64,000 nt of DNA from Odiellus spinosus (Eukaryota; Arthropoda; Arachnida; Opiliones; Phalangiidae). Below the pieces are notes generated by a model that saw only the letters and a program-made list of their open reading frames with translations, was not told the DNA's origin and searched no databases. Shown here piece after piece: positions 39,053 through 62,240 of this stretch. A program made the position numbers and the translations under genes. Location: positions 17,005,492-17,069,491 of the forward strand of contig OY987225.1 of NCBI GenBank assembly GCA_963920705.1, written 5' to 3'. The first letter of the stretch is position 1. Every line of letters begins with the position of its first letter.

Positions 39053-39069
39053 TGCGCTCAAGGGCTTAA

Positions 39070-42777: not shown

Positions 42778-42794
42778 CTTAAAATTGATAAATC

Positions 42795-42807
42795 AAGGCG
42801 AGCGGAA
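42795..42807 (+). other. Polypurine tract of the BEL/Pao element
   Basis: AAGGCGAGCGGAA lies immediately before LTR 2, as expected for plus-strand priming. It is interrupted by two C residues. The same sequence precedes LTR 3 at 45366-45378. Confidence 0.65.
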
Positions 42808-43054: not shown

Positions 43055-43202
43055 TTTATGGTCCGTCGAGCCGGATCGCTTTTAATCGCGGTTTAATTTA
43101 CGCCTAAACCAGAAGTTGAAGAAAGCGTTCCGTCATTACAATATCTCGTGGGATACTTGGAGTCGATTACACTTCTCGTGGTAATTAAATATTTACGGCA
43201 TC

Positions 43203-44528
43203 ATGGCATTGGAAGGAGGCATTAACAAACGCAGATGGATAAAGGGACAAGCAACAAGATATGAAAACATCCTCAGTAACCATGCCGAGGAAGATATCCG
43301 AGTTTCAGCCTTTGAGTTATACCTGTCGAAACTGAGACAACACTCAAGTAATCTGGAAACGACACATGAAGTCATCAATAACTTATGCAATGCCGAAGAG
43401 GTGGATCAGAACGATGAGGAGTTCAACGGAATCATTGAGCGGTTAGAAGCCTCAATCATTACCTTTCAATCGATGCTTAGTCAGAAATCACAATCCAATC
43501 GAGTCAGACAGACCGCCGAGATCAAGCTACCGAAAATAGAATTACCCGTCTTTGGAGGAAATTATACTGAATGGCTTTCCTTTCATGATCTGTTCAAGGC
43601 AACCGTTCATGACAACTCGGCTTTATCAGCAGGGCAGAAGTTTCAATATCTCAAGTCATCTCTTCGAAATGAAGCGGCACTTCTGATCCATTCCATTCCG
43701 GTAACGGACGACAATTACCCGGAAGCTTGGGATATCTTAATTAACCGATACAATAATACACGAGAAATTATCGACGCTCATATTCAACGATTATTCAACC
43801 AACCCAGCATTACCAACGAATCAAGCTCTGATCTGCGTCGACTCATAGACACAACTGCTGAATGCGTACGGGCGTTGAAGGTATTGAAGGAACCCGTTCA
43901 ACACTGGGACTCGATTTTGGTACACTTAGTCAAGGAGAAATTGGACCAGGAGAGCCGCCGACAATGGCAACTTTCCCTGAAGGGTATAGCAAGACCTAAA
44001 TATGCGGAACTCTCCACCTTCATCGATCAGCGAGCCAGAGCTCTGAGTGTTGCTGAAACAAGTATGACCGTCGCTCGATCAAAACCATCAGCAATATTCC
44101 CGATCAAGAAAGTTCATCACATTGACACGTCTCAAGAAAAATGTGTTATGTGCGGGGGAGCACATCCTATATTCGCCTGTTCAAGATTTCGAGCAGCGGC
44201 AACTCAAGAACGTTGGAATATCGTTCAAAAACACTCCATGTGTTTCAACTGTTTCAAAACTGACCATCGCTCTAACAACTGCAAATCTGGCAAATGTAGG
44301 AGGTGTTCAGCCAAGCATAACACGTTACTTCATGAGGATGGTAAACATTCCAATATCAATAATCAAGTATTTCCAACTGTCGAAGCTAAGAAGGCAATGA
44401 CGTCAAAGGTTGCAACTGGAGTCTTACTAGCCACCGCTGTTGTTCAAGTAGTGGATTACGAAGGTCAAGCACACCCAGTACGAGCACTATTGGATTCAGG
44501 ATCAGAGGCAAGCTTTATTACGGAATGA
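43203..44528 (+). CDS. gag: BEL/Pao gag with start of protease, copy 2
   Basis: 441 codons, nearly identical to copy 1: Met to Ile in the RRWMKGQ stretch and Ile to Asn in VHDISAL are the visible changes. It has the same three Cys/His knuckles and the same TGA directly after the DSG active site. It is followed by the same frame change, so both copies descend from one gag-pol sequence carrying these features. Confidence 0.9.
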   Translation: MALEGGINKRRWIKGQATRYENILSNHAEEDIRVSAFELYLSKLRQHSSNLETTHEVINNLCNAEEVDQNDEEFNGIIERLEASIITFQSMLSQKSQSNRVRQTAEIKLPKIELPVFGGNYTEWLSFHDLFKATVHDNSALSAGQKFQYLKSSLRNEAALLIHSIPVTDDNYPEAWDILINRYNNTREIIDAHIQRLFNQPSITNESSSDLRRLIDTTAECVRALKVLKEPVQHWDSILVHLVKEKLDQESRRQWQLSLKGIARPKYAELSTFIDQRARALSVAETSMTVARSKPSAIFPIKKVHHIDTSQEKCVMCGGAHPIFACSRFRAAATQERWNIVQKHSMCFNCFKTDHRSNNCKSGKCRRCSAKHNTLLHEDGKHSNINNQVFPTVEAKKAMTSKVATGVLLATAVVQVVDYEGQAHPVRALLDSGSEASFITE

Positions 44529-45348
44529 TGCGCTCAAGGGCTTAAATTGTTAATGTAACAATATCCGGAATCGGTGGAAATGGAGCTGGATCATCGCATA
44601 GCGTAACTACGCTCTCGGTCCTGTCAAGGCTCGATAAATCTGTTCAACTTACCGTAGAGGCTTTCGTTCTTCGAAGATTAACAGGAAGGCTTCCAAGTAA
44701 TACCGTTAACCCGAAAAACTGGTCACACCTCAAGAACCTGCAGTTGGCGGATCCCACCTTTTATAAAGCGGGAGACATTGACATCCTGCTTGGAGCCGAT
44801 GTATTCGTTGACGTTATCCGGGACGGTCACCAGAAGGGTCCACGAGGGTTGCCAAACGCTTTCATTTAAATTATGAAGAAATGCAAACGCTCTTATGCCA
44901 GATTGAGGCATGTCTGAACTCCAGACCGCTAACGGCGCTTAGCACGAACTCGGATGATTTGGCCCCATTGACCCCTGGACATTTCTTAATTGGTGGCCCG
45001 TTGACAGCGATCCCAGAGCCAGATTTGTCCTCGACCAAAACCAACCGGCTGTCAAGATGGCAAGTTGGTCAGCAACTTTTGCAGCATTTCTGGAAGCGAT
45101 GGAGAAATGAATATCTCGCGCGGCTACAACAAAGACCCAAATGGGCAACAATCAAGGAAAAACTTGAAATCGGCGATTTGGTTATCATCAAGGACAATGA
45201 CCTCCCTCCTACCAAATGGAAACTCGGACGAATCTTGGAGCTCCATCCCGGAAGTGATGGCAACGTACGCGTAGTCACGCTCAAAACCAGCGATCGAGAA
45301 CACGTTAAAAGACCTATTGTAAAGTTGTGTAAATTACCATTAGATTAA
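44529..45348 (+). pseudogene. pol: BEL/Pao pol, copy 2, with 2.9-kb internal deletion
   Basis: The protease remnant (ILLGADVFVDV) runs to about 44863 and then jumps directly to the C-terminal NYEEMQTLLCQIEACLNS. The missing block corresponds to about 39391-42291 of copy 1: all of RT, RNase H and nearly all of integrase. The junction GCTTTCATTTAAATT has at most one or two bases of microhomology. The C-terminal part from 44881 to 45348 stays open and matches copy 1. Confidence 0.93.
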
Positions 45349-45625: not shown

Positions 45626-48600
45626 ATTTGATATTATTTATTTTACAGGGGGTGTATTAGATATTATTTATTTTACAGGGGTTGTATTTGATATCATTTA
45701 TTTTACAGGGGTGTATTTGATATTTATTTTACAGGGGGTGTATTTGATATTATTTATTTTACAGGGGGTGTATTTGATATTATTTATTTTACAGGGTCTG
45801 TATTTGATATTATTCATCTTACAGGGGGTGTATTTGATATTATTAATTTTACAGGGGTGAATTTAATATTATTTATTTTACAGGGGGTGTATTTGATATT
45901 ATTTATTTTACCGGGGGTGTATTTGATATTATTTATTTTACAGGGGGTGTACTTGATATTATTTATTTTACAGGGTCTGTATTTGATATTATTTATTTTA
46001 CAGGGGGTGTATTTGATATTATTAATTTTACAGGGGGTGTATTTGATATTATTTATTTTACAGGGGTGTATTTGATATTATTTATTTTACAGGGGGTGTA
46101 TTTGATATTATTTATTTTACAGGGGGTGTATTTGATATTATTTATTTTACAGGGGGTGTATTAGATATTATTTTACAGGGGGTGTATTAGATATTATTTT
46201 ACAGGGGTTGTATTTGATATTATTTATTTTACAGGGGTGAATTTGATATTAATTATTTTACAGGGGGTGTATTTGATATTTATTTTACAGGGGGTGTATT
46301 TGATATTATTTATTTAACAGGGGGTGTATTTGATATTATTTATTTAACAGGGGGTGTGTTTGATATTATTTATTTTACAGGGGGTGTATTTGATATTTAT
46401 TTTACAGGGGGTGTATTTGATATTATTTATTTTACAGGGGGTGTATTTGATATTATTTATTTTACAGGGTCTGTATTTGATATTATTCATTTTACAGGGG
46501 GTGTATTTGATATTATTAATTTTACAGGGGTGAATTTAATATTATATATTTTACAGGGGGTGTATTTGATATTATTTATTTTACCGGGGGTGTATTTGAT
46601 ATTATTTATTTTACAGGGGGTGTACTTGATATTATTTATTTTACAGGGGGTGTATTTGATATTATTAATTTTACAGGGGGTGTATTTGATATTATTTATT
46701 TTACAGGGGGTGTATTTGATATTATTTATTTTACAGGGGGTGTATTTGATATTATTTATTTTACAGGGGGTGTATTTGATATTATTTATTTTACAGGGGG
46801 TGTATTTGATATTATTTATTTTACAGGGGTGTATTTGATATTATTTATTTTACAGGGGGTGTATTTGATATTATTTATTTTACAGGGGGTGTATTTGATA
46901 TTATTTATTTTACAGGGGGTCTATTTGATATTATTTATTTTACAGGGGGTGTATTAGATATTATTTATTTTACAGGGGGTGTATTTGATATTATTTATTT
47001 TACAGGGGGTGTATTTGATATTATTTATTTTACAGGGGTGTATTTGATATTATTTATTTTACAGGGGTGTATTTGATATTATTTATTTTTCAGGGGTGTA
47101 TTTGATATTATTTTACAGGGGGTGTATTTGATATTATTTATTTTACAGGGGGTGTATTTGATATTATTTATTTTCCAGGGGGTGTATTAGATATTATTTA
47201 TTTTACAGGTGTTGTATTTGATATTATTTATTTTACAGGGGTGAATTTGATATTATTTATTTAACACGGGGTGTGTTTGATATTATTTATTTTACAGGGG
47301 GGTGTATTTGATATTATTCATTTTACAGGGGGTGTATTTGATATTATTCATTTTACAGGGGGTGTATTTGATATTATTAATTTTACAGGGGTGAATTTAA
47401 TATTATTTATTTTACAGGGGGTGTATTTGTTATTATTTATTTTACCGGGGGTGTACTTGATATTATTTATTTTACAGGGTCTGTATTTGATATTATTTAT
47501 TTTACAGGGGGTGTATTTGATATTATTAATTTTACAGGGGGTGTATTTGATATTATTAATTTTACAGGGGGTGTATTTGATATTATTTATTTTCCAGGGG
47601 GTGTATTTGATATTATTTATTTTACAGGGGGTGTATTTGATATTATTTATTTTACAGGGGGTGTATTTGATATTATTTATTTTACGGGGGTGTATTTGAT
47701 ATTATTTATTTTACAGGGGGTGTATTTGATATTATTTATTTTACAGGGGGTGTATTTGATATTATTAATTTTACAGGGGTATATTTGATATTATTTATTT
47801 TACAGGGGGTGTATTTGATATTTATTTTACAGGGGGTGTATTTGATATTATTTATTTTACAGGGGTGTATTTGATATTATTTATTTTACAGGGGTGTATT
47901 TGATATTATTTATTTTACAGGGGTGTATTTGATATTATTTTACAGGGGGTGTATTAGATATTATTTATTTTACAGGGAGTGTATTTGATATTATTTATTT
48001 TCTAGGGGGTGTATTTGATATTATTTATTTTGCAGGGGGTGTATTAGATATTATTTATTTTACAGGTGTTGTATTTGATATTATTTATTTTACAGGGGTG
48101 AATTTGATATTATTTATTTTACAGGGGGTGTATTTGATATTTATTTTACAGGGGGTGTATTTGATATTATTTATTTAACACGGGGTGTGTTTGATATTAT
48201 TTATTTTACTAGGGGGTGTATTTGATATTGTTTATTTTACAGGGTCTGTATTTGATATTATTTATTTTACAGGGGGTGTATTTGATATTATTTATTTTAC
48301 AGGGGGTGTAATTGATATTATTTATTTTACAGGGTTGTATTTGATATTATTTATTTTACAGGGGGTGTATTTGATATTATTTATTTTACAGGGGTGTATT
48401 TGATATTATTTATTTTACAGGGGGTGTATTTGATATTATTTACTTTACAGGGGGTGTATTAGATATTATTTATTTTACAGGGGTTGTATTTGATATTATT
48501 TATTTTACAGGGGTGAATTTGATATTATTTATTTTACAGGGGGTGTATTTGATATTTATTTTACAGGGGGTGTATTTGATATTATTTATTTAACAGGGGG

Positions 48601-50205
48601 TGTGTTTGACATTATTTATTTTACAGGGGGTGTATTTGATATTTATTTTACAGTGGGTGTATTTGATATTATTTATTTTACAGGGTGTGTATTTGATATT
48701 ATTTATTTTACAGGGGGTGAATTTGATATTATTTATTTTACAGGGTGTGTATTTGATATTATTTATTTTACAGGGGTGTATTTGCTATTATTTATTTTAC
48801 AGGGGGTGTGTTTGATATTATTAATTTTACAGGGGTGTATTTGATATTATTTATTTTACAGGAGGTGTATTTGATATTATTTATATTACAGGGTGTGTAT
48901 TTGATGTTATTTATTTTACAGGGGTGTATTTGATGTTATTTATTTTACAGGGGTGTATTTGATATTATTTATTTTACAGGTGGTGTATTTGATATTTATT
49001 TTACAGGGGGTGTATTTGATATTATTTATTTAACAGGGGGTGTGTTTGATATTATTTATTTTACAGGGGGTGTGTTTGATATTTATTTTACAGGGGGTGT
49101 ATTTCATATTATTTATTTTACAGGGTGTGTATTTGATGTTATTTATTTTACAGGGGTGTATTTGATATTATTTATTTTGCAGGGGGTGTGTTTGATATTA
49201 TTTATTTTACAGGGGTGAATTTGATATTATTTATTTTACAGGGTGTGTATTTGATATTATTTATTTTACAGGGGCGTATTTGCTATTATTTATTTTACAG
49301 GGGGTGTAGTTGATATTATTAATTTTACAGGGGTGTTTTTATATTATTTATTTTACAGGGGCTGTATTTGATATTATTTATTTTACAGGGGGTGTAATTG
49401 ATATTATTTATTTTACAGGGGGTGTATTTGATATTATTTATTTTAAGGGGGTGTTTGATATTTATTTATTTTACAGGGGGTGTATTTGATATTATTTATT
49501 TTTCAGGGGGTGTATGTGATATTATTTATTTTTCAATGGGTGTATTTGATGTTATTTATTTTACAGGGGGTGTATTTGATATTATTTATTTTGCAGGGGG
49601 TGTATTTGATATTATTTATTTTACAGGGGGTGTATTTGATATTATTTATTTTACAGGGGGTGTGTTTGATATTATTTATTTTACAGGGGGTGTATGTGAT
49701 ATTATTTATTTTTCAATGGGTGTATTAGATATTATTTATTTTACAGGGAGTGTATTTGATATTATTTATTTTCCAGGGGGTGTATTTGATATTATTTATT
49801 TTACAGGGGGTGTATTAGATATTATTTATTTTACAGGTGTTGTATTTGATATTATTTATTTTACAGGGGTGAATTTGATATTATTTATTTTACAGGGGGT
49901 GTATTTGATATTATTTATTTTACAGGGGGTGTATTTAATATTATTTATTTTACAGGGGATGTATTTGATATTATTTATTTTACAGGGGGTGTATTTGAAA
50001 TTATTTATTTTACAGGGGGTGAATTTGATATTATTTATTTTACAGGGGGTGTATTTGATATTATTTATTTTACAGGGGGTGTATTTGATATTATTTATTT
50101 TACATGGGGTGTATTTGATTTTATTTATTTTACAGGGGGTGTATTTGATATTATTTATTTTACAAGGGGTGTATTTGATATTATTTATTTTACAGGGGGT
50201 GTAAT
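45626..50205 (+). repeat. 30-bp satellite, + orientation, about 154 units
   Basis: Continuation of the array broken by the retrotransposon. Same unit and variants, with shortened units where ATTATTTATTTTACAG loses 4-8 bases, and scattered substitutions. Some higher-order repetition is visible: a series with GTGAATTT, TATTTATTTAACA and GTGTGTTTGAT recurs near 46230-46400, 47230-47290, 48100-48200 and 48510-48610. Confidence 0.97.
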
Positions 50206-50345
50206 ATTTTTTTACAAGGGGTAAAATCTAAAAGAAAATCAACTTTTTTTACAAGGGATATCCCTTGTAAAAAAATCTAAAATAAAATCGATTTTTTTAC
50301 AAGGGTACCCCTTGGAAAAAAATCGAAAATAAATTCGATTTTTTA
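50206..50345. repeat. Linker repeat at the inversion point of the satellite
   Basis: Contains TTTTTTTACAAGGG, ATATCCCTTGTAAAAAAATC and AAGGGTACCCCTTGG, i.e. the palindromic linker. Left of it the satellite runs in + orientation, right of it in - orientation. Confidence 0.9.
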
Positions 50346-51775
50346 CACCCCCTGTAAAATAAATAATATCAAATACACCCCTGTAAAATTAATAATATCA
50401 ATTACACCCCCTGTAAAATAAATAATATCAAATACACCCCCTGTAAAGCAAATATTATCAAATGCATCCCCTGTAAAATAAATATATCATATATACCCCT
50501 GTAAAATAAATAATATCAAATACACCCCCTGTAAAATAAATAATATCAAATACACCCCAGTAAAATAAATAATATCAAATACACCCCTGTAAAATTAATA
50601 ATATCAAATACACCCCCTGTAAAATAAATAATATCAAATACACCCCCTGTAAAATAAATAATATCAAATACACCCCCTGTAAAATAAATAATATCAAATA
50701 CACCCCCTGTAAAATAAATAATATCAAATACACCCCCTATAAAATAAATAATATCAAATACACTCCCTGTAAAATAAATAATGTCAAATACACCTCCTGT
50801 AAAATAAATAATATCAAATACACCCCTGTAAAATTAATAATATCAATTACACCCCCTGTAAAATAAATAATATCAAATACACCCCCTGTAAAGCAAATAT
50901 TATCAAATACACCCCCTGTAAAATAAATAATATCATATACACCCCCTGTAAAATAAATAATATCAAATACACCCCTGTAAAATTAATATCAAATACACCA
51001 ATGTAAAATAAATAATTTCAAATACACCCCCTGTAAAATAAATAATATCAAATACACCCCCTGTAAAATAAATAATATCAAATACAACCATTGTAAAATA
51101 AATAATATCAAATACACCCCTGTAAAATTAATAATATCAAATACACCAATGTAAAATAAATAATTTCAAATACACCCCCGGTAAAATAAATGTCAAATAC
51201 ACCCCATGTAAAATAAATAATATCAAATACACGCCTGTAAAATTAACAATATCAAATACACCCCCTGTAAAATAAATAATATGAAATACACCCCTGTAAA
51301 GTAAATAATATCAAATACAGCCATTGTAAAATAAATAATATGAAATACACCCCCTGTAAAATAAATAATATCAAATACACGCCTGTAAAATTAACAATAT
51401 CAAATACACCCCCTGTAAAATAAATAATATCAAATACACCCCTGTAAAGTAAATAATATCAAATACACCCCCTGTAAAATAAATAATATCAAATACACCC
51501 CTGTAAAATTAATAATATCAAATACACCCCTGTAAAATTAATATCAAATACACCAATGTAAAATAAATAATTTCAAATACACCCCCTGTAAAATAAATAA
51601 TATCAAATACACCCCTGTAAAGTAAATAATATCAAATACACCCCCTGTAAAATAAATAATATCAAATACAACCATTGTAAAATAAATAATATGAAATACA
51701 CCCCCTGTAAAATAAATAATATCAAATTCACTCCCTGTAAAATAAATAATATCAAATAAACCCCTGTAAAATTAA
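50346..51775 (-). repeat. 30-bp satellite, - orientation
   Basis: Reverse complement of the same unit (CCCCCTGTAAAATAAATAAT, ATCAAATACA). More degenerate than the left half, with variants such as CCAATGTAAAAT and GCCTGTAAAATTAACAAT and visible higher-order repetition (50800-51000, 51230-51700). Confidence 0.95.
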
Positions 51776-52643
51776 GGTACTACCCCGATTCGCCCAAAAC
51801 ATTTGGCCCAATTCCCATTTCGCCCAATCTCGATTGGCCCAAACTCAATTGGCCCAAACTCAATTGGCCCAATCCCAACTGGCCCAATTCCCAATCAGCC
51901 CAATTTATTAGGCCCAATCCTATTTCGTCCAATCCCATTTCCCCTAATTCCCAATTCGCATAATTCCATTTTTGCCAAATTCTTATTTCGCCCAATCCAC
52001 ACCCAAGGCATATGCGAACAAAATCCTCTTGATCGGTTCCTTCGTCCTGTTTAATTATTTCTACACGCACTTCTTGATGTAACTAAACAATTTACTTTAT
52101 TAATTTTGGTAACCTAATTCAACCCAACCTACCTTAACCCAACCAACCCTAACCCAACAGAAGCTATAGAACAATTTTCTTTATTAGTTTTGGTAACCTA
52201 ACCTAACCTAACCCAAGCCAACCTAACCCAACCCAATCTTAAGAACTATTTTCTTTATTAATTTTGGTAACCTAACCCAACCCAATACAATCTATCTTAA
52301 CCCAACATAATCTACCTTAACCTAACCTAACCTAACCCAGCCTAACCCAACCCAATCTAAAGAACAATTTACTTTATTAGTTTTGGTAACCTAACCTAAC
52401 AATTTTAGGCGAAAAGGAATTTTAGGTTGAGCGAAATGGGAATAGATAATTCTTTATTAACTGATAAACCGATTAGGCGAAGTGGGATTGGGCGAATTGG
52501 GACAAGGAAATTTTGGTTTGGGTGAATTGGGAATCGATAATTTTGGGCCAAATGATAATACGTTTGGGTGAATTAAGATTGGGCGAAATGGGAATAGATA
52601 ATTTTGGGCCAAATATTTGGGCGAAATGGGAACAAACCAAAAT
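51776..52643. mobile_element. Microrepeat-armed foldback cassette A (GCCCAATT type)
   Basis: Left arm (about 51785-51995) is an array of units of 13-16 bp such as TTGGCCCAAACTCAA and TTCGCCCAATCCCAT; right arm (about 52430-52640) is the inverted type, GGGCGAATTGGGA and GGGCCAAATGATAA. The interior (52070-52405) is about four copies of an 80-110 bp unit made of CTTTATTARTTTTGGTAACC plus CCTAA/CCCAA runs. Satellite flanks both sides in the same orientation, consistent with insertion into it. Confidence 0.7.
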
Positions 52644-52980
52644 GGATAATATCAAATACACCCCTGTAAAATAAATAATATCAAATACACCCCCTGTAAA
52701 ATAAATAATATCAAATACACCCCCTGTAAAATAAATAATATCAAATACACCCCCTGTAAAATAAATAATATCAAATATACCCCCTGTAAAATAAATAATA
52801 TCAAATACACCCCCTGTAAAATATATAATATAAAATACACCCCCTGTAAAATAAATAATATCAAATACACCCCCTGTAAAATAAATAATATCAAATACAC
52901 CCCCTGTAAAATAAATAATATCAAATACACCCCCTGTAAAATAAATAATATCAAATACACCCCCTGTAAAATAAATAATA
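52644..52980 (-). repeat. 30-bp satellite, - orientation, about 11 units
   Basis: Regular 30-bp units between cassette A and the next linker; very uniform. Confidence 0.96.
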
Positions 52981-53140
52981 AGGGGTACCCCTTGTAAAAA
53001 AATCTAAAATAAAATCGATCTTTTTACAAGGGGACCCCTTGTAAATAAATCTAAAATAAAATTAATTTGTTTTACAAGGGGTACCCCCTGAAAAAAATCG
53101 AAAATAAAGTCGATTTTTTACAAGGGGTACCCCCTGTAAA
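52981..53140. repeat. Linker repeat (GGGGTACCCC type)
   Basis: AAGGGGTACCCCTTGTAAAA, then AAATCTAAAATAAAATCGAT and CTTTTTACAAGGGG, repeated about 2.5 times with a unit of about 60 bp. A nearly identical block occurs at 53511-53680, so the satellite-plus-linker module is itself duplicated. Confidence 0.88.
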
Positions 53141-53510
53141 ACAAATAATATCAAATACACCCCCTGTAAAATAAATAATATCAAATACACCCCCTGTAAA
53201 ATAAATAATATCAAATACACCCCCTGTAAAATAAATAATATCAAATACACCCCCTGTAAAATAAATAATATCAAATACACCCCCTGTAAAATAAAAAAGA
53301 TCAAATACAGCCCCTGTAAAATAAATAATATCAAATACACCCCCTGTAAAATAAATAATATCAAATATACCACCTGTAAAATAAATAATATCAAATACAC
53401 CCCCTGTAAAATACATAATATAAAATACACCCCCTGTAAAATAACTAATATCAAATACACCCCCTGTAAAATAAATAATATCAAATACACCCCCTGTAAA
53501 ATAAATAATA
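53141..53510 (-). repeat. 30-bp satellite, - orientation, about 12 units
   Basis: Regular units, a few with substitutions (AAAAAAGATC, ACTAATATC). It ends in the same AATAATAAGGGGTACCCC junction as the array that ends at 52980. Confidence 0.96.
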
Positions 53511-53685
53511 AGGGGTACCCCTTGTAAAAAAATCTAAAATAAAATCGATCTTTTTACAAGGGGACCCCTTGTAAATAAATCTAAAATAAAATGAATTGGT
53601 TTTACAAGGGGACCCCTTGTAAATAAATCTAAAATAAAATTAATTGGTTTTACAAGGGGTACCCCCTGTAAAACAAATAATCTCA
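53511..53685. repeat. Linker repeat (GGGGTACCCC type), second block
   Basis: About three 55-60 bp linker units, nearly identical to 52981-53140. Confidence 0.88.
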
Positions 53686-54266
53686 AAGACTTAGGTTCAT
53701 TTGCTCGACTTCAAATTGATCGACAAGGAGTCCGTTTGATCGACTACCGTTTGATCGACTCCCATTTGATCGACTCCCATTTGATCGACAAGCCATTCCA
53801 ATTGATCGACAGCCCAGTTTTTTAGCGAGTAACGAGTATAGGTCAGTTTTTTTGCAAGAAACTATTAAAGGTTAAATTATGGTATATAAATAAGAACTAA
53901 TTCAAATAATAATTATTCCGTGAAAATGGGGTCAGAGTACTCGTTTGTTAGGTTAGGTTAGGTTAGGTTTGGGTTAGGTTAGGTTGGTTAATCTATTTAT
54001 AATCGTTATTACGAAGTTGACCAATTGGGAAACGATCAAATGCACCCTTTGTTGTTGGTAATTTGGGATTAGGCATCAATCATTTTATCCCTTTGTCGAT
54101 CATTTGGGAGTCGATCAAGTGGACCCTTTGTCGATCATTTGGGAGTCGATCAAGTGGACCTCTTGTCGATCATTTGGGAGTCGATCAATTGTGAGTCGAT
54201 CATTTGGGTGTCGATCAAGTGGACCTCTTGTCGATCATTTGGGAGTCGATCAAGTGGACCCAAATC
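53686..54266. mobile_element. Microrepeat-armed foldback cassette B (GATCGAC type)
   Basis: Left arm (53700-53812) repeats TTTGATCGACTCCCA-like units; right arm (54080-54262) repeats the inverted GTCGATCATTTGGGA and GTCGATCAAGTGGAC. Between them is AT-rich sequence plus a TTAGG-type run at 53947-53990. No coding capacity. Same design as cassettes A, C and D. Confidence 0.7.
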
Positions 54267-54321
54267 ATATCAAATACACCCCCTGTAAAATAAATAATAT
54301 CAAATACACCCCCTGTAAAAT
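54267..54321 (-). repeat. 30-bp satellite, two units between cassettes
   Basis: Just under two units, ATCAAATACACCCCCTGTAA type, separating cassettes B and C. Confidence 0.93.
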
Positions 54322-55272
54322 CGGAACCGGACAATTGGGCGCCAACATTTGGGCGCTGGACATTTGGGCGCCGGACATTTGGGCGCCGCCACTTGGGCGC
54401 CGAACATTTGGACGCCTGGACATTTGGACGCCAAGCCATTTGGGCGCCGGGACATTTGGACGCCGTGCCATTTGGGCGCCAGGACATTTGGACGCCGTGC
54501 CATTTGGGCGCCGGGACATTTAGACGGCGAGCCATTTGGGCGCTGGGACATTTGGGCGCCTGGACATTTAGGCGCCGGGACATTTGAGCCACATTTTAGG
54601 TTAGGCTAAGCAATGATTATAACCACTGAGCAGGTTTTTCTTTCGAATGGGATTAAGCAGGATATTTCAATTAGATTAAACCGGTTCAAACCGCCTTTCT
54701 TGTAACCTTTTAGGTAAGGTTAGGTTAGATAATTACACAAACTAGCCCGTTCATCCAACTAGATAATATCTTCGGCTAGCCCGTTCGTCTTGTAATATTT
54801 TAGGTTAGGTTAGGTTAGATAATTATACGAACTAGCCCGTTCATCCAACTAGGTAATATCTTCGGCTAGCCCGTTCGTCTTGTAATATTTTAGGTTAGGT
54901 TGGCGTAAAGCGCACTAGGCGGCACTCAGCGGAGCCTGACCATGTGTAGGGAGGGCGCCGTTCAGCGCTCGGGTAAGGATACTATACGATCGGGTGCCTA
55001 AATGTCGTTCACGTTTTTCCGACTATTGCGCCCAAATGTCTCGGCGCCCAAATGTCTCGGCGGCCAAATGTCTCGTCACCCAAATGTCTCGGCGCCCAAA
55101 TGTCTCGGCGCCCAAATGTCTCGGCGCCCAAATGCCTCGGCGCCCAAATGTCTCGGCGCCCAAATGTCTCGGCGCCCAATTGTCCCGGCGCCCAAATGTC
55201 TCGGCGCCCAATTGTCCCGGCGCCCAATTGTCCCGGCGCCCAAGTGGCGGCGCCCAAATGTCGCGGATCGCT
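54322..55272. mobile_element. Microrepeat-armed foldback cassette C (GGCGCC type)
   Basis: Left arm (54325-54595) is about 17 units of 15-16 bp, consensus GGACATTTGGGCGCC; right arm (55025-55262) is about 16 inverted units, GGCGCCCAAATGTCT. The interior (54596-55020) contains two copies of a segment of about 100 bp with TAGGTTAGGTTAGATAATTA, CTAGCCCGTTCATCCAACTA and CTTCGGCTAGCCCGTTCGTC. Open frames with PKCLGAQMSRRPN-like repeats come from the arrays and are not genes. Confidence 0.75.
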
Positions 55273-55462
55273 ATAAATAAATAATATCAAATACACCCCC
55301 TGTAAAATAAATTATATCAAATACACCCCCTGTAAAATAAATTATATCAAATACACCCCTTGTAAAATAAATTATATCAAATACACCCCCTGTAAAATAA
55401 ATAATATCAAATACACCCCCTGTAAAATAAATAATATCAAATACACCCCCTGTAAAATAAAT
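55273..55462 (-). repeat. 30-bp satellite, - orientation, about 6 units
   Basis: Units with AAATTATATC variants. Ends exactly at the start of the perfect inverted repeat. Confidence 0.95.
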
Positions 55463-55974
55463 AATTATACAAAAAAGAGGTTGCTTCGCACCCTTAAAAA
55501 AAACTCTTTATCTAACTCGAATCAAACCCGTGAAGGGACAGAAATTATTTGTTAGAGAAAGAGCAATTTCATATCTTTAAAATTATAGTTAGTAGGTTTA
55601 GTCTACTACTTCAAAGATTTTATTACTATTATATATTTTCCAAAAAACGGATAAAGACGACCTAGGACTAATGATAAATATACATATACATTAAAGGAAC
55701 TCCATCTTTAGCTAATTTTATTAGTGATACTGATAGAATTTAAAATTAACATCAATGGGAGAGGAAGTTTAACTAGGTCGTCTTTATCCGTTTTTTGGAA
55801 AATATATAATAGTAATAAAATCTTTGAAGTAGTAGACTAAACCTACTAACTATAATTTTAAAGATATGAAATTGCTCTTTCTCTAACAAATAATTTCTGT
55901 CCCTTCACGGGTTTGATTCGAGTTAGATAAAGAGTTTTTTTTAAGGGTGCGAAGCAACCTCTTTTTTGTATAAT
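55463..55974. mobile_element. Perfect 202-bp inverted repeat (hairpin element)
   Basis: Left arm 55463-55664 and right arm 55773-55974 appear exactly reverse complementary over 202 bp, with a 108-bp spacer. Outer ends are ATTATACAAAAAAGAGGTTG and its complement. No coding capacity. Perfect arms imply a very young element, recent gene conversion between arms, or an assembly fold-back artefact. Confidence 0.93.
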
Positions 55975-56099
55975 TTCTGTCCTTTTTTCACCAAAAATAT
56001 ACACCTTTTCCACATTTCACTATTTTGCTTTATAGGTTTATTGAACCTTAATTCTTACTATTTAAAGCTGAATAAAAATTAAAGCGTTTAATTGAGGCT

Positions 56100-56610
56100 T
56101 CAATCTATTCGTAATTGAAACCCTGGTACAAATCTCGAAAGGCAGAGATTAACTAACCTAACCTTACCTAAGCTGTAAAACAGGGATGGGCTAGTTCAAT
56201 TGATTAACTAACCTAAACTAATCTTACCTAAAATACTACAAGATGAACGGGTTAGCCCGAGTTATAGGGATTACCTAGTTGGAGGGATGGGTTTTTCCAG
56301 GGTTTAATTAACCTAATTTAACCTTAAAGATTACTTGATGGAATGGGTAACCCGAGGGATTAACTAGTTGGAACGATGGGCTAATTCGAGGAATTAACTA
56401 ACCTAACCTAGCCTTACCTAAAATAATACAAATAGCCCGAGCTAAGGATTAACTAGTTGGAGGGATTGGCTAATTAGAGGGATTAACTAACCTAACCTCA
56501 CCTTAAAGATTACCAGATGGACGGGGGAGGTCGAGGGATTAACTAACCTAGCCTTACCTAAAATATTACAAGAGGGACGGGCTAGACCGAGCTAGAGATT
56601 AAATTTATAA
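56100..56610 (-). repeat. Degenerate 100-bp-type repeats related to the cassette C interior
   Basis: Four to five loose units with TTAACTAACCTAACC, TTACCTAAAATANTACAAG, GGACGGGCTAG and GGATTAACTAGTTGGA. These are reverse complements of the TAGGTTAGGTTAGATAAT and CTAGCCCGTTCATC modules inside cassette C. Confidence 0.7.
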
Positions 56611-56794
56611 TATTGAATCGCATCGACAAAAAATGAGCATGGAAAGCGAAACAATTCTTTAAAGCAAGAGAACATAATTCAGGAGACCAGAAGTATGTGG
56701 CCGTTTATTTAACTCGCCGACATCAATTTCCGTTTCGTACATCCTATTTAACATTCTAAATCTTTATTTTTTATTATACTTAAGTTAGACGTGC

Positions 56795-57000
56795 TTTAGA
56801 TACAGACTTCAATAATTGTCCAACTACTTAATAGCAACGTTATTACGTAGTAGTAATGACGAAGCTATTGGATCTAAAGCACATCCTAGTCGCAAAACTC
56901 AAGTATTTTACAAAATAGAGTAGAGATTGAGAACGTTAAACTATAAATTTCATGTGTAATCGAGCACTTGGCAGGATATGAAGTCCAACTCAAGTGATAT
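56795..57000 (-). repeat. Dispersed repeat family E, inverted copy
   Basis: Reverse-complement match to 26375-26560 (landmarks AAAGCACATCCTAGTCGC, AATCGAGCACTTGG). The stretch from 57001 to 57480 shows nothing recognisable. Confidence 0.6.
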
Positions 57001-57479
57001 TTAATCCCTAGAACTCTCATTGTGAAATGTTTTTACAGTGACTAAATATATTAAATTGGCCACATTTCTAGGTAATGCGATTTACATTCAATCGCCTCGC
57101 TTTATTCGAGTACTCTACCCAAAAGATCGTGAGAAATAGGTCTCTTATCACCGAAATATAGGTGAGAAACGATTGCCTAAACAATCAAGGACGTCACCAT
57201 TGCACAAACGAGAGGGTTCGCCACAATTTTATACGCTAAGTTAAACCACCCATTGGTACGGTGCATCTGTGAGTATTGAATCTGCAAATCTCGTTTATAT
57301 AGGCCGAGAAGAGATGTATTATTAAAGTTAAAAAATCAAATGATAAGAAAATCATGCCAACTTTTTAATTAGGGTGAATATAATGGGATACTCATGATAT
57401 GACATAATAGTCAAAATTAGACGGCTGAAGAGGGCTACCCTAGTAAAAGAACCCAATAAATGCAATTTTCCGTTAACGA

Positions 57480-57905
57480 TAAAAAATGCCATTAAAAAAA
57501 ACTTATCAACTGTTTAATAAAATCAATTTTTGTTTATCAATTTAAAGCCAATTAATAAAGCTTGGCTAGTTATATGTTTTACCCTTTTCGTCACCCATAC
57601 AGCCATCTGTCTCTCTATTAACTCGAATTCGATGGATATTCATTATCATTCTACTGTTTAAGAAATAAAATTTTGGTTTATCATTTTGAAGCAATTAGTA
57701 AAGCTCGGCTAAGCTTAAGATCTCACCCTTTTGCAACCCATTCAGGCACCTTACTTTCTATTACTTCGTATACTTAATCAACATTTCATTATTGAAATCT
57801 GTGTTTAACTAGAGATACTCTTGTACCCGAACGAAGTCTTATCAAATTTTTTCAAAAGTACCTTTGTCTGTATTAATTCGAATTCAGTGGACGGTGGGAA
57901 GAGGG
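57480..57905 (+). mobile_element. Dispersed repeat family B-related copy
   Basis: CACCCATACAGCCATCTGTC and TATCATTCTACTGTTTAA match 24650-24890; TTCAGGCACCTTACT, TGTGTTTAACTAGAGA and GAATTCAGTGGACGGTGGGA match 33710-33905. Two copies of the same module in tandem. Confidence 0.65.
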
Positions 57906-57966
57906 AAACGACGACGACGACGAAGATTTCAGTTTCTGATGAAATTCGAGTTTAGATAAAGGGATA

Positions 57967-57990
57967 AACACGAACGTGTTTATCCTAATA
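57967..57990. repeat. Short hairpin before the last satellite block
   Basis: GGATAAACACG and CGTGTTTATCC are separated by two A residues: an 11-bp stem directly beside the first satellite unit. Confidence 0.7.
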
Positions 57991-58258
57991 TCAAATACAC
58001 CCCCTGTAAAATAAATAATATCAAATACACCCCCTGTAAAATAAATAATATCAAATACACCCCCTGTAAATTAAATAATATCAAATACACCCCTTGTAAA
58101 ATAAATAATATCAAATACACCCCCTGTAAAATAAATAATGTCAAATACACCCCCTGTAAAATAAATAATATCAAATACCCCCCCTGTAAAATAAATAATA
58201 TCAAATACACCCCTTGTAAAATAAATAATATCAAATACACCCCCTGTAAAATAAATCA
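57991..58258 (-). repeat. 30-bp satellite, - orientation, about 9 units
   Basis: Last satellite block, regular units, separated from the others by about 2 kb of hairpin and dispersed repeats. Confidence 0.96.
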
Positions 58259-58460
58259 CCCCTAGTAAAACAAATCAATTTTATTTTAGATTTATTTAAA
58301 AGTGGTACCCTTTTAAAAAAGATCGATTTTATTTTATATTTTTTTACAAGGGGTATCCCTTGTAAAAAGATCGATTTTATTTTATATTTTTTTACAAGGG
58401 GTATCCCTTGTAAAAAGATCGATTTTTATATGAGATTTTTTTACAGGGGTACCCCTTGGA
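58259..58460. repeat. Linker repeat, right border of the satellite domain
   Basis: Three tandem units of about 55 bp, AAAAAGATCGATTTTATTTT plus ACAAGGGGTATCCCTTGTAA, the latter palindromic. Mirrors the linker at 34723-35114, so the whole satellite domain is bracketed by this sequence. Confidence 0.85.
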
Positions 58461-59779
58461 AAATATAGATTTTATTTTCATTTTATTGCAATTCCCAATA
58501 CATTTTCATATTTTTCGAGTCTCGACCTAAACATTTTCCCTTTATTTTGTCTGCAATGGCTTAGTTCGCGGTCAGGGTATTATAAAAGGATACTATATTC
58601 TAGAAATTAGCTATTAAAAATCGATTTGGGCTGTAGAAATATTTGTGAACTAATTCAGTTCACACAGGAGTATGCTATAACCAACCAAGGGGCTCTCAAA
58701 ATTCTTTCGAATGGGCCTCCAAATCCTCTTAAAATGGGCTTATTTCATTTTAAAAGTGGCCTACTTCATTCACATCCTAACTTAAAATAAACATCAAGCT
58801 AATCTTAAGCTTCTACCAACTAAAAAAAATGTTAAAAAAACAGCCAGAAACAACTGCTTTATTTCTACAAACAACATCAAATAAAAATGACCTTTTCAAC
58901 AACGTAATTTTAATTTTTACATAATAATATTTTTAACTATGATTTTTCTCTTACGGAACAAAAAAAAACATAAATTACAATGTTTTCTTGATGCGGACCA
59001 ACTTTTTATACAACGCTTTTTTAATAAAATTAAATTGGAAAATTATATTTTACATAAAATTTATATTATTAAGTATGATCGAAATATAAAATTAAAAGCA
59101 CTACACATCGATAATAATTCATAAATTAAAATAAATTATTATAACGTCCAAGTTAAGATCATCTTTACCTTTGAGAAGGTTAACATAAATTACACGTGTA
59201 TTTATTTCAAATATCTTCCTGAAACCTTCTAAACAGAACAAGCCCAAATCATTATTTTCCCATTTCAATTATACCATTTCTTAAATTAATTAAAAATGCA
59301 TCCGTAATGTTTGTATGACTAAGGCTGTCAAAATTAGTGACGTTGTTTAATTTATAAAATTAAGCGTGGTTTTTTCACGAGTGTTTATTACTTTGTGGTT
59401 GAAAAGGTTTAGTAGACTTAAGTTTTATTTCGTCTAAAAATATTGGGCGTTAAAATAATGTTACGTTACTTAGAGCAACTTTTTACTATAAACTATAAAT
59501 TTACTTTCGTAATCAAAATATATCTGTTGTATGTTTTTGATAGAACCACTTAAGGTACATTCTAAGTTAATAATTATTTTGGTGGAAGAAGAGCTATATA
59601 GAGGTTATAGGAATAACATTTTTTTGTTTTTTGTTCAAAAGTAATACAGTATTGTTTCTAACCGAATTACATACAGGTATTTTTTCTTTTTGGTTTTTCT
59701 ATAACAATAAATGTATGTCTCATTGAGAATATTTTTTTTTAATTTTACATAAGGTCAAGTCGGTTGTTCGTTTTCGTTT
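58461..59779. other. AT-rich spacer
   Basis: No recognised gene. A 61-codon Lys/Ile-rich open frame at 58939-59124 (+) has no motif. On the minus strand an ATTAAA near 59740 could serve as poly(A) signal for the candidate exon at 59780-59937. Confidence 0.4.
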
Positions 59780-59937
59780 TCATAAGAAGATAGTCATTTC
59801 ATTTTCCCCAAGATTGGAAAAGTCCCGCTCGTTGACACCTACAATTAGTTCCCCATAGGTTGCAGCGACACGCTGAATTGTAGCAACAGTCATTCGGTCG
59901 GTTATCGCAGCTTCCTCCTCGTCGAACGCAGCTTCTC
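59780..59937 (-). CDS. Candidate terminal exon of an unknown protein
   Basis: Minus strand: a T-rich stretch ending TTATTTGTTAG (acceptor-like) precedes 59937, then 51 codons without a stop reading AAFDEEEAAITDRMTVATIQ and VAATYGELIVGVNERDF and SNLGENEMTIFL, then TGA at 59780-59782. Composition is balanced and soluble-protein-like, unlike the Lys/Ile/Phe-rich chance frames around it, and third-base choice is not simply AT-driven. Two bases of a split codon would come from the previous exon. I recognise no family and could not find the upstream exon, so it may be part of a gene to the right or of a transposon. Treat as a candidate only. Confidence 0.35.
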
Positions 59938-60298
59938 CTAACAAATAAATCGCAATCACATATATTATAAAAGAACTTGTGGGTGCGACATCTTGTTCGA
60001 ATGTTGCTAACTACGTCACAAAATCACGTGGCATTAAAGTTATACAGGGCATTTATTTACGTTTTCATAAAACGCTAGGGGTCAGGCGGCTCAGAAGTCA
60101 CTCGGGAGAGACCCGACTGTGAGAGCTAACACGGATATAGAAAAAATAAGATTAAGAAATGCTCGGTGCTCACGAGCGCCATGAGCTTTACAATCCATGA
60201 CGTAGCTGATGACGTCGACGGCAACATTCCCTGAGTAAGCTCCCCCTCTTTTATGATTGCCGCTATTACGAATCAGTAATACACGCCACGTCTACTGA
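59938..60298. other. Spacer with CRE-like motifs
   Basis: TGACGTAG and GATGACGTCGAC at about 60197-60218 and CACGTGG near 60026. The short ATG frame MSFTIHDVADDVDGNIP (about 60181-60234) is followed closely by GTAAGC but ends in a stop; not enough to call a gene. Confidence 0.3.
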
Positions 60299-60390
60299 TA
60301 GAGCTCAGAATCGGATAATGAATAACTCAGAATATCCATTGATAACTAGGCGTTTTTTTTAGATAATTTTATCTCGGATAATTTTTTTGT
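60299..60390 (+). mobile_element. Family A terminal fragment
   Basis: AGAGCTCAGAATCGGATAAT, ATATCCATTGATAACTAGGC and AGATAATTTTATCTCGG: terminal module of family A. Confidence 0.65.
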
Positions 60391-60424
60391 TTCGAAAATG
60401 ACTAAATTTTAACGTATTTGTGAA

Positions 60425-61560
60425 GGGCTTAGTACCATTGGATCGAAATTCATTTGATCGACACAGGGTCCATTAGATCGAAATTCAATGGATCGACATG
60501 CAGAACCAAATGATCGACACTTAAAAAAAGAAGACTCAAATGATCGACAGGTAAAAAAGATTGAGTGGAATAGATATGAAGTACCATTGGATCGAAATTC
60601 ATTTGATTGACACAGGGTATATTAGATCGAAATTCAATGGATCGACATGCAGAACCAAATGATCGACACTTACAAAAAGAAGATTCAAATGATCGACAGT
60701 TAAAAAAGATTGAGTGGAATAGATATGAAGTACCATTGGATCGACATGCAGAACCAAATGATCGAAAATATCAAATATCAGTTTAAAAAAAGCCAAAAAA
60801 TCTTGAAGTTTGATCTTATGGGAAGTTAAAAAACGCATATATATAAAAAAAAAATAGAGTGAGGCTGTCATTATTTTAGAATGCCCATGGATTATTTAAT
60901 TATTATTTACATCTCTGGGTTGGTGTGGCTAAAAATTGAGGCGGTTGGGTACGTAATGTTTGTACTCGAGTTTACATAGAGTAACGACTTCAAAGATCAG
61001 ACTTCAAAGGCGGGTTTCATCTACCCCTGTCCAACATTATATATGACCTAACCCAAACTAACCTAACCTAACCCTACAAAACCCAATCATTTTATTTATT
61101 AACCAAATAATTTCGATTATTTAACACACCATTTTCACGATGCGGATTCAAACTCAGTATCTTTTTACAATCCATGCGGGCTATCCTTTCGGGCAACGGG
61201 TCACGGCATCTCAATTAAAACGAGAGAGACTGTCGATCAAATAAATTTCGATCAAATGGGGCTATTCCGTCGATCAAATGGGGCTATTCCGTCGATCAAA
61301 TGGGGCTATTCCGTCGATCAAATGGGGCTATTCCGTCGATCAAATGAGACACACTGTCGATCAGATAAATTTCGATCCAATGGACCCTTTGTCGATCGAA
61401 TGAATTTCTATCTATTGGTAAAAAAACGAGAGAGACTGTCCATCAAATAAATTTCGATCAAATGGGGCTATCCCGTCGATCAAATGAGACACACTGTCGA
61501 TCAGATAAATTTCGATCAAAAGGACCCTTTGTCGATCGGATGAATTTCTATCTATTAGTA
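60425..61560. mobile_element. Microrepeat-armed foldback cassette D (GATCGAAATT type)
   Basis: Left arm (60435-60775) consists of units such as TTGGATCGAAATTCATTTGA and ATGATCGACATGCAGAACCA, including a near-perfect 140-bp duplication (60430-60580 and 60580-60730). Right arm (61225-61555) has the inverted type: four tandem 20-bp GTCGATCAAATGGGGCTATT-like units, then GTCGATCAGATAAATTTCGA, again partly duplicated. The interior includes CTAACCTAACCTAACCCTAC near 61055-61075 and a tRNA-like stretch at 61139-61200 (minus strand, GAGTTTGAATCCGC). No coding capacity. Confidence 0.65.
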
Positions 61561-61597
61561 ATATCCCTTTGTGGCGAATGTCTTGTTTGATCCTAGG

Positions 61598-62240
61598 TAG
61601 AGCTCGGAATCAGATAACGAAAAACTTGGGATATCCATTGATAACTAGGCCTTTTTCAGATATTTTTTGGTATGTTGATATAATATCACTTGCCTCTTAA
61701 AACATCGTCACCAAAAGGGCGTTTATACCAAACAGTCTTATAATGATCAGATAGTTTAGTTTTTTAATAGAAACAGCCAGTGTTCTGTTTGTTAATATAA
61801 AACCACAAATAATATATTATTTGTGGTTTTATATTAACAAACAATTTATCAGAGATTCAAATATCTGAAAAAAAAGCCTAGTTATCAATGGATATATTTA
61901 GTTCAAAATCAAATGGATACTAATTATCCGGAGATAAAATTTTAAACTTGAGTAATAAACAAATTGCTCGTTTATTCAAACGTATAATGCGAAGGTAAAA
62001 ATATGACGTTTCTCGAAATCTGTGTGGAATGAAATATTATAATTATACTTTAATCTAAATTGAAAGCAACCGATTAAATGACTACATTCTAGCTTCGAGA
62101 TCTCAATTTGGGTTAAAATCAACGAAGAAACTCGATTTTCAAATTTTTTTATCGACGAATGTATAATTAGTACAACGTATCAATTTCTTATAAAAATTAG
62201 AATTAAATAAAAGTTCGCTAGAGCGGGCAAGAGAGGGCAA
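61598..62240 (-). mobile_element. Family A copy with palindromic insertion
   Basis: Starts TAGAGCTCGGAATCAGATAA and ATATCCATTGATAACTAGGC; the body from about 61920 to 62230 is the reverse complement of the 20408 and 62952 copies. A perfect 56-bp palindrome lies inside at 61787-61842. Confidence 0.7.
61787..61842. repeat. Perfect 56-bp palindrome
   Basis: GTTTGTTAATATAAAACCAC and AAATAATA, followed directly by the exact reverse complement with no spacer. It sits where two family A ends meet, so it may mark a head-to-head junction of two copies. Confidence 0.97.

Follow-up and report, generated by a model that had tools for sequence, protein, structure and literature searches.

Four families of gene-less Foldback-type transposons with TTAGG runs in Odiellus spinosus

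Four cassettes (A, B, C and D) in a 64,000-nucleotide stretch of the Odiellus spinosus genome (the window) represent four families of short, gene-less, non-autonomous Foldback-type DNA transposons. These elements are very probably of the cut-and-paste type and moved in trans by Phantom-like transposases of the Mutator (MULE) superfamily. A run of the insect-type telomere repeat, TTAGG, is present in every family examined and is a notable, unexplained feature. A sequence-only reading of the window had proposed that the cassettes form a related but diversified Foldback-like group, and this proposal is borne out by dispersed copies, by definable ends and target duplications in A, B and C, by an empty site for a related fifth family (E) and by relatives with a transposase for C and E.

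Layout, dispersal and ends of the four families

The cassettes lie where they had originally been placed, with boundaries displaced by a few bases at most (refined limits: A, 51776-52638; B, 53688-54266; C, 54322-55270; D, 60425 to ~61567, the last provisional). We scanned for clusters in which a 9-mer occurs at least three times within 200 bp and which have an inverted counterpart no more than 1.5 kb away. This array scan recovered A, B, C and D from the window, together with two satellite regions (48675-51772 and 53023-53623), and yielded 0 pairs from 20 dinucleotide shuffles. Three of the four cassettes are embedded in satellite, the nearby satellites having 30-bp and 48-bp repeats. The features of the four elements are as follows.

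51768-51775, unstranded: left target duplication of A, AAAATTAA, inside the 30-bp satellite
51776-52638, + strand: element A, non-autonomous Foldback-type transposon, 863 bp, ends GGTACTACCCC (kin: GGTTCTACCCC) and GGTTTGTTCCC
51784-51996, + strand: left arm of A, ~15-bp units CCCATTT[CG]GCCCAAT
52100-52400, - strand: interior of A, CCTAA runs, partly a 74-bp repeat
52400-52638, - strand: right arm of A, inverted, degenerate in part
52639-52646, unstranded: right target duplication of A, AAAATGGA, 6/8 identical to the left copy, satellite register kept
53680-53687, unstranded: left target duplication of B, ATCTCAAA
53688-54266, + strand: element B, 579 bp, ends GACTTAGGTTC (kin: GGCTTAGGTTC) and GATTTGGGTCC
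53698-53810, + strand: left arm of B, 15- and 20-bp units, e.g. CCCATTTGATCGACT
53948-53990, + strand: interior TTAGG run of B
54025-54266, - strand: right arm of B, inverted, 15- and 20-bp units
54267-54274, unstranded: right target duplication of B, ATATCAAA, 7/8 against the left copy
54313-54321, unstranded: left target duplication of C, CTGTAAAAT, degenerate pair, by eye
54322-55270, + strand: element C, 949 bp, ends CGGAACCGG and CGATCCGCG
54329-54589, + strand: left arm of C, 16-bp units GGACATTTGGGCGCCG
54596-54901, + strand: interior TTAGG runs of C, partly a 90-bp repeat
55028-55266, - strand: right arm of C, inverted 16-bp units
55271-55278, unstranded: right target duplication of C, CTATAAAT, degenerate pair, by eye
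60417-60424, unstranded: candidate left target duplication of D, TTTGTGAA, provisional
60425-61567, + strand: element D, ~1143 bp, ends GGGCTTAGTACC (GGCTTAGTACC in copies L079 and L080) and GGGATATTACTA (provisional)
60425-60770, + strand: left arm of D, 15-21 bp units, e.g. GATCGAAATTCATTT, with a 149-bp block doubled
61046-61073, - strand: interior CCTAA run of D
61230-61567, - strand: right arm of D, inverted 15-22 bp units

The description of the arms as inverted arrays of short units holds, with measured unit lengths of 15-22 bp. Most units in all four cassettes are 15-16 bp long, and B and D contain 20-22 bp units besides, giving the long inverted arms of short tandem repeats seen in Foldback-type elements. 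The list of the 25 longest inverted repeats in the window includes the arms of B, C and D, paired with 71-86% complementarity, and lacks those of A; the one inverted pair found for A reaches 88% over 34 bases. Different palindromic cores had been assigned to the units, and those of B and D (GATC) and of C (GGCGCC) were confirmed, whereas A, read as GGCC, has a mixture of GGCC and CGCC. The further statement that the cassettes share little sequence was too strong: B and D have TTTGATCGAC and GATCGACAAAGGGTCC in common, and CATT gives a common register for the alignment of several consensus units. The CCTAA/TTAGG interiors had been noticed correctly, and 14 of the 15 matches to TTAGGTTAGG/CCTAACCTAA in the window lie inside the four cassettes.

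Copies of all four families are dispersed, as the suggested whole-genome search revealed. First-look candidates in the 443-Mb genome numbered 1092 for A, 632 for B, 837 for C and 145 for D, and from these 40 copies per family were scored. For A, 35 of 92 match rows cover 727 or more of the 868 query bases; each of the 40 scored B copies matches over 536 or more of 581; and for D, 9 of 134 match rows span 1136 or more of 1151, the window copy being counted each time. A dimer of the B unit matches the genome 2129 times, and its reversed control 0 times. Array length varies strongly from copy to copy; another C copy, L043, has 61 matches to the right-type unit.

Families A, B and C have sharp, family-specific ends and target duplications of 8-9 bp. 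Allowing at most one mismatch, we scored 8-9 bp duplications at 3/8 A loci, 22/28 B loci and 16/20 C loci, compared with 0.00, 0.17 and 0.10, respectively, when flanks were exchanged. Exact 9-bp duplications were found at 3/28 B loci and 8/20 C loci, and A loci have 8-bp duplications only. Because some flanks are common to several B and C loci, the number of independent insertions is below the number of loci. The C copy in the window is among the 3/20 C loci scored as 'none'. D likewise has dispersed copies; its candidate duplication is provisional, since the right copy (TTTGTGGC) agrees with the left at 6/8 positions and was chosen by eye, and no target duplication was found where one was looked for in copies L079 and L080. 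A CATT-like word 9-10 bases past the first G (a position set by eye) occurs in 10 of 12 termini, a result equalled in 8 of 200,000 random-phase draws.

The satellite flanks of A and B show the sequence that preceded insertion. Furthermore, the proposed check for empty sites produced a filled and empty pair, though for the related family E: the filled site lies in locus L069 between 518 and 1045 with the repeat AATATCTTCG, and its empty counterpart is at 54759-54783 of the window, within the interior of C.

TTAGG runs in the elements

All 38/38 copies of A and B that were inspected carry a TTAGG run. A density count, made for families A and B only and on copies that are related to each other, gave 71 runs in 24.0 kb of element versus 11 in 112.5 kb of flank. 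With loci L001 and L009 excluded, 3/3 flank runs sit in further A- or B-type cassettes, and a spanning inverted repeat was present at 9/69 run-free control positions. Runs also occur in C, D, E and three loci encoding a MULE transposase (see below). When the interiors of A, B, C, D, the E copy in L069 and the MULE loci L075 and L076 were compared, the short matches fell on TTAGG runs; those between the L069 E copy and L075 fell on E units common to both, and a 17-base match between D and L075 (E 0.02) was taken as chance.

These runs could be mere background in a genome that is rich in short TTAGG runs, where any repeat would gain them. Consistent with this explanation, the 443-Mb genome contains 14,497 matches to TTAGGTTAGGTTAGG, with overlapping matches counted individually, and the density count is confined to related copies of two families. 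Three further runs, at window position 23127, L070:2544 and L080:888, have no inverted repeat spanning them, which defeats any rule that would confine TTAGG runs to these elements. However, the presence of a run in each A and B copy, its excess over the flanks, the location of the remaining flank runs in further cassettes and the recurrence of runs in C, D, E and the MULE loci make the background explanation improbable.

A tentative alternative is that, instead of being cargo, the run has a function in this transposon clan or has been regained by it repeatedly. An excision break might be healed by telomerase-type TTAGG addition and then rejoined, which would leave a telomeric scar between the arms. 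By another route, the run might bind a host telomere-repeat protein that aids expression or the pairing of ends. Families with otherwise unrelated interiors each have a run, as do autonomous-type copies, and so the clan may be among the principal carriers of interstitial telomere-type sequence in this genome. Literature titles and abstract openings stated no link between TTAGG and Foldback, Mutator or inverted-repeat elements.

Relatives with a MULE transposase

A survey of the genome for MULE domains gave 72 match rows, and we examined eight loci around the domain and a ninth in part. Three of the eight (L075, L076 and L077) combine E- or C-type units with a TTAGG run and with FLYWCH and MULE domains, which places the clan beside Phantom-like Mutator elements. 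Specifically, C-type units enclose both domains in L076, which has an exact 9-bp duplication, E-type units enclose them in L075 (the ends of both loci were set by eye), and L077 has E-type units on one side only. The FLYWCH zinc finger stands ahead of the MULE domain, as in the Phantom clade; its match exceeds the cut-off in L075 and L076 and falls 0.2 bits short in L077 (23.4 versus 23.6 bits). In the frames of these loci, no PHD finger was matched with an E value of 0.1 or lower. The other five of the eight loci lack such arms within flanks of ~1.5 kb per side (L070-L072) or 2.2-2.4 kb (L073 and L074).

The transposases of L075 and L077, both with E-type units, are 53% identical over 338 amino acids, and those of L075 (E) and L076 (C) are 30% identical over 244. 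Judged from these alignments, unit type goes with transposase lineage in the three loci compared. A larger relative with a transposase had been anticipated, and this expectation is realized for C- and E-type units; within A-, B- or D-type arms none was found among the eight loci and the partly examined ninth. Compared over 16 positions with the E unit, which encloses a MULE, the A and B units agree at 12 each and the D unit at 11; C units have no match to A or E units beyond chance.

Other candidate partners were rejected. Among the matches listed, the sole B-unit dimer near a MULE match is at C3, where it is part of a separate B copy whose end falls between the dimer and the MULE; this MULE has its own unit, GGATTTTTTTACC, as an array on the right side (L082) and singly on the left (L081). 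A Copia-like gag/integrase/MBD element beside the C copy in L069 differs in its ends and its 23-bp units. Unit patterns and a transposase query found no match in viral contigs.

The duplications of 8-9 bp in A, B and C fall within the 8-11 bp given for Mutator elements in the part of PMC6446971 used here. For A, B and D, the MULE assignment is one that we infer. These three families might instead be moved by another superfamily, hAT or P/Galileo, with long arms that evolved independently. Elements of the hAT and P groups likewise make 8-bp duplications, and hAT target duplications are not known to exceed 8 bp. B and C exceed this length with their exact 9-bp duplications; A shows 8 bp only, and so duplication size does not separate A from hAT. 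The failure to find a MULE within A, B or D arms is also in keeping with such an origin, as is Galileo, a P element with Foldback-like arms (PMC3688188). Nevertheless, the agreement of A, B and D units with the E unit, and a single end grammar common to most ends and to C and E, leave this alternative decidedly unlikely. Local duplication without transposition, by which the array pairs arose in place like the surrounding satellites, is scarcely credible despite the satellite setting and the variable array lengths. It is refuted for A, B and C, whose copies keep their ends and 8-9 bp target duplications wherever they lie among unrelated flanks, and E has a filled and an empty site; for D, the dispersed copies speak against it.

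If MULE transposases move all four families, each 15-16 bp unit would be a putative transposase binding site, and arrays may lengthen and shorten via slippage or unequal exchange. As the DNA-binding part of a transposase diverged, its array could be homogenized to a new core, which would give different palindromes in one scaffold. Copies in which the gene was lost would then persist as MITE-like elements. The interior TTAGG may have been inherited from the 5′ side of the transposase gene or captured in break repair.

Comparison with known elements

The sequence-only reading had considered this design a candidate for something undescribed. Sea urchin TU elements, as described, resemble it in having 15-bp tandem arm units and 8-bp duplications. 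The closest published plan, likened by layout, is that of Tm1 from root-knot nematodes (Meloidogyne), which equals the one reported here (PMC3169594); given this plan and the Phantom-like relatives, the kind is already known. In the portion of that paper drawn on here, Tm1 has arrays of motifs mostly of 14 bp, with ranges of 8-17 bp in one species and 12-21 bp in another; motif number varies, the two end motifs differ, and duplications are of 9 bp. One form has FLYWCH and a MULE transposase, and many forms do not. A tandem short motif in the arms and two unlike end motifs are likewise found in our elements. The Tm1 core differs slightly between two nematode species (PMC3169594), and unit type tracks the transposase in our three loci, so several cores in one scaffold, thought unusual at first, are less odd. 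Unlike Tm1, there are several families with different cores in one genome here, duplications are of 8 or 9 bp, first-look copy counts exceed the 39 and 22 annotated Tm1 elements, and each family examined has a TTAGG run, on which the Tm1 description, in the portion used, is silent (PMC3169594).

The Phantom clade of MULEs, which includes arthropod hosts, shares FLYWCH and MULE domains, 8-10 bp duplications and inverted repeats (18-613 bp), a likeness by described features (PMC6446971). The Phantom table, in the part consulted, gives a minisatellite behind the transposase frame in aphids and lists neither short-unit arms nor a TTAGG run (PMC6446971). Rehavkus is similar in its 9-bp duplications, arthropod hosts and minisatellite but has a PHD finger where L075, L076 and L077 have FLYWCH (PMC6446971). 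Tetris, a Foldback element of Drosophila virilis, resembles A-D in its long tandem-repeat inverted arms, 8-10 bp duplications, link to satellite DNA and want of an open reading frame; it differs in its ~220 bp repeat and in that no transposase was found for it (PMC4079207). Galileo, with tandem repeats that carry extra transposase binding sites in Foldback-like arms, is the model for the unit function proposed here, and differs in belonging to the P-element superfamily with a THAP domain (PMC3688188).

Our findings tie several Foldback-like families of one genome to FLYWCH-MULE transposases. The turnover of unit arrays can be traced across copies, and hence the view of arms as evolving arrays of transposase binding sites can be tested directly. 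Should the TTAGG link hold across the genome, these transposons would be a source of interstitial telomeric repeats besides chromosome fusion.

Unit arrays of the four cassettes

The sequence-only reading had proposed four Foldback-related cassettes, each consisting of two inverted arms of short tandem units around an interior with a TTAGG/CCTAA run, and re-inspection of the window bore out all four positions. A scan for inverted 9-mer clusters returned these cassettes and two satellite regions, with none in 20 dinucleotide shuffles.

Cassettes A to D of the window and the related family E, with unit words aligned on CATT and, for A to D, flanking duplication pairs.
A, 51776-52638: unit CCCATTTCGCCCAATT; pair AAAATTAA/AAAATGGA, in 30-bp satellite
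B, 53688-54266: unit CCCATTTGATCGACTC; pair ATCTCAAA/ATATCAAA, in 30-bp satellite
C, 54322-55270: unit GACATTTGGGCGCCGG; pair CTGTAAAAT/CTATAAAT, degenerate, scored as 'none'
D, 60425 to about 61567 (provisional): unit TTCATTTGATCGAAAT; candidate pair TTTGTGAA/TTTGTGGC
E, from related loci: unit CCCATTCGACCGAATT

Compared in register, units agree at 12 of 16 positions for A-E and B-E, 11 for B-D and D-E, 10 for A-B, 9 for A-D and B-C, and 8 for C-D, identities matched by 0.02-1.9% of shuffle draws; A-C and C-E (7/16 each) were no better than chance (12% and 19% of shuffles), all these percentages being a guide only because the unit words were written down from the arrays. Judged from these pairwise unit identities, A, B, D and E are linked, and C is attached to them only through B and D.

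The window, at G000:C1:17005492-17069491, also contains a Peptidase_A17 (BEL/Pao) frame and DDE_Tnp_4 frames, which together with the TTAGG repeats point to an arthropod. Two BEL/Pao copies lie in the same orientation at 37709-45348, the second without most of its middle, and two DDE_Tnp_4 transposase copies with closely similar frames lie in opposite orientation at 29043-32980. A tandem array of a 20-bp unit (about 80 copies, 97% matches) occupies 3714-5312. The inverted repeat at 55463-55975, with 203-nt arms that are 100% complementary and a 107-nt spacer, is perhaps a very young insertion. At 45626-51772, a 30-bp satellite flips orientation around 50203-50344, passing through a 47-bp unit akin to a GGTACC-cored 48-bp satellite; by analogy with Tetris, it may represent overgrown Foldback arms. 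Element D is flanked by direct copies of one repeat (TAGAGCTC..GATAACTAGGC; 60297-60351 and 61598-61655), and a similar stretch occurs near 22,800.

Dispersed copies, ends and target duplications

Further copies of all four families were found in the genome searched (443 Mb, 286 contigs), with 40 candidates scored per family and window copies counted in. The best 40 of 1092 first-look candidates for A gave 92 match rows, 35 of them covering at least 727 of 868 query bases. For B (best 40 of 632 candidates; 137 match rows), all 40 scored copies matched over at least 536 of 581 bases, and for D (best 40 of 145; 134 match rows), nine rows span at least 1136 of 1151. For C there were 201 matches (best 40 of 837), and among the matches listed the window copy alone aligns unbroken over its full length, since C arms vary. 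With gap columns excluded, median pairwise identity is 0.95 among 8 A copies and 0.96 among 30 B copies, the latter including an outlier (L024) with 0.565 identity to the majority. The B-unit dimer has 2129 genome matches at no more than two mismatches, and its reversed control has none.

Anchoring on the terminal 20-22 bases revealed definable ends and target duplications for A, B and C. The eight A loci comprise one exact 8-mer, two with one mismatch, four with two and one with none. In B (28 of 30 loci; L012 and L024, without a left anchor, were left out), eight 8-mers and three 9-mers are exact, eight 8-mers and three 9-mers have one mismatch, five have two and one locus has none. In C (20 of 30 loci; the other ten did not show both ends within the stretch retrieved), three 8-mers and eight 9-mers are exact, one 8-mer and four 9-mers have one mismatch, one has two and three loci have none. 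Thus 3/8 A, 22/28 B and 16/20 C loci show at most one mismatch, against exchanged-flank means of 0.00, 0.17 and 0.10 (maxima in 2000 draws 0, 3 and 1). Some loci have common flanks (e.g. L032/L033, L046/L057/L058, L053/L059, L054/L055 and L065/L066), each such set representing a single insertion, and the loci therefore outnumber the independent events. Mean duplication identity is highest at 8 bases (A, 0.77; B, 0.72). The window copies of A and B are both inserted in the 30-bp satellite, whose register gives the pre-insertion sequence. The D candidate found no confirmation in two further loci, L079 and L080.

A CATT-like word (at least 3/4) lies 9 or 10 bases past the first G in 10 of 12 ends (A, B, C, D, L075, L076); in A1 it lies at 11 bases, and D2 lacks it there. 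Ten ends in register arose in 8 of 200,000 draws with phase random per family, a result somewhat favoured by the choice of first G, which was read off the target duplications and, for C, placed one base in from the end.

An empty site was found for family E. Inside the C copy of locus L069, an extra cassette between 518 and 1045 carries E units and its own CCTAA runs, with AATATCTTCG repeated in both flanks, and its uninterrupted counterpart is the window C copy at 54759. At least one empty-like site occurs in 28 of 30 C loci, two of which also have the filled form (L062, overlapping L069, and L049, where the flank is the same); L063 and L067 have neither. This filled and empty pair is direct evidence that the E family moved by insertion.

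The L069 stretch (G000:C107:2159000-2165999) also holds, at 1563-6143, about 4.6 kb in which inverted arms of about 370-400 bp with 23-bp repeats enclose Copia-type gag, integrase and SH3 domains and a methyl-CpG-binding domain; no reverse transcriptase match was present in the three frames scanned. It is possibly a DNA transposon assembled from Copia parts.

Transposase-bearing relatives and TTAGG runs

A search with the Mutator-like (MULE) transposase family PF10551 gave 72 match rows (114 candidates, all scored), and eight loci were inspected, L070-L072 from this search and L073-L077 fetched. The larger relative with a transposase envisaged by the sequence-only reading was found with C-type (L076) and E-type (L075; L077, right side) units. 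L075 spans 2639 bp; its E-type units (5 matches on one side, 11 on the other) enclose one FLYWCH and one MULE frame, and there is a possible 9-bp duplication (7/9). In L076, ten C-type units stand on the left and the right arm is short and degenerate; between them lies a 408-aa FLYWCH and MULE frame, followed by a second frame that overlaps it. This element covers 2064 bp and is flanked by an exact 9-bp duplication, ATTTAAACT. The ends of both loci were placed by eye. L077 has four E-type units on the right only, plus one adjoining in opposite sense. The flanks covered at the other five loci (L070-L074) held no such arms, L073 having a lone unit match at 4451.

The E-type transposases of L075 and L077 are 53% identical over 338 aa, and L075 is 30% identical to the C-type transposase over 244 aa; judged by these identities, the type of unit goes with the lineage of the transposase in the three loci compared. 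A, B and D probably belong to the MULEs, judged from how their units, ends and duplication lengths relate (for D, units and ends) rather than from a gene. A ninth MULE match, on contig C3, has a B-unit dimer 720 bp away, the only such pair noticed among the first 100 places listed; it was rejected as an autonomous B element, since the B element stops short of the MULE, whose own unit differs. This MULE match (L081 and L082, G000:C3:3752500-3754950) has on the right the unit GGATTTTTTTACC, about 15-16 bp long, and is perhaps a further family on the same plan.

Interiors compared have little in common beyond the TTAGG run. At least one run occurs in all 38 A and B copies, and run counts are 71 over 24.0 kb of element sequence versus 11 over 112.5 kb of flanks, a tally in which the L001 and L009 flanks contain the window's own cassettes; leaving out these two and merging runs less than 150 bp apart, three flank runs are left, all inside other A- or B-type cassettes, and at control positions in run-free flanks a spanning inverted repeat was present in 9 of 69 cases. 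L075 and L076 each have a run between left end and gene; in L077 a run lies upstream of the gene. Among the runs tallied in the window and L069-L080, those at window 23127, L070:2544, L080:888 and in L077 have no spanning inverted repeat. The 15-mer TTAGGTTAGGTTAGG has 14,497 genome matches, overlapping ones counted separately. From its density in elements, the TTAGG run is strongly tied to the clan, where it occurs in either orientation, but the runs lacking a spanning inverted repeat show that it is not exclusive to it.

Comparison with known systems and proposed mechanism

Element plan and transposase domains agree with those of Tm1 as described in PMC3169594. Phantom, in Table 1 of PMC6446971, has duplications of 8-10 bp, inverted repeats of 18-613 bp and fingers that include FLYWCH, and can be set beside the present elements by that description.

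We infer a binding role for the units, mobilisation in trans and an origin for the TTAGG runs; in primates and rodents, telomeric repeats are reported to have been inserted as breaks were repaired (PMC7215372). The model is Galileo, whose arms are repetitive and contain several transposase binding sites according to PMC3688188: the units here would likewise be sites for binding the FLYWCH-MULE protein, recruiting it and assisting the pairing of both ends. Unit arrays expand freely, compare the 61 right-type unit matches in one C copy (L043) and the approximately 370 bp covered by consecutive B-unit dimers at C4:22587428-22587798. Insertion generates the 8-9 bp duplications, which fall inside the 8-11 bp range reported for MULEs in PMC6446971.
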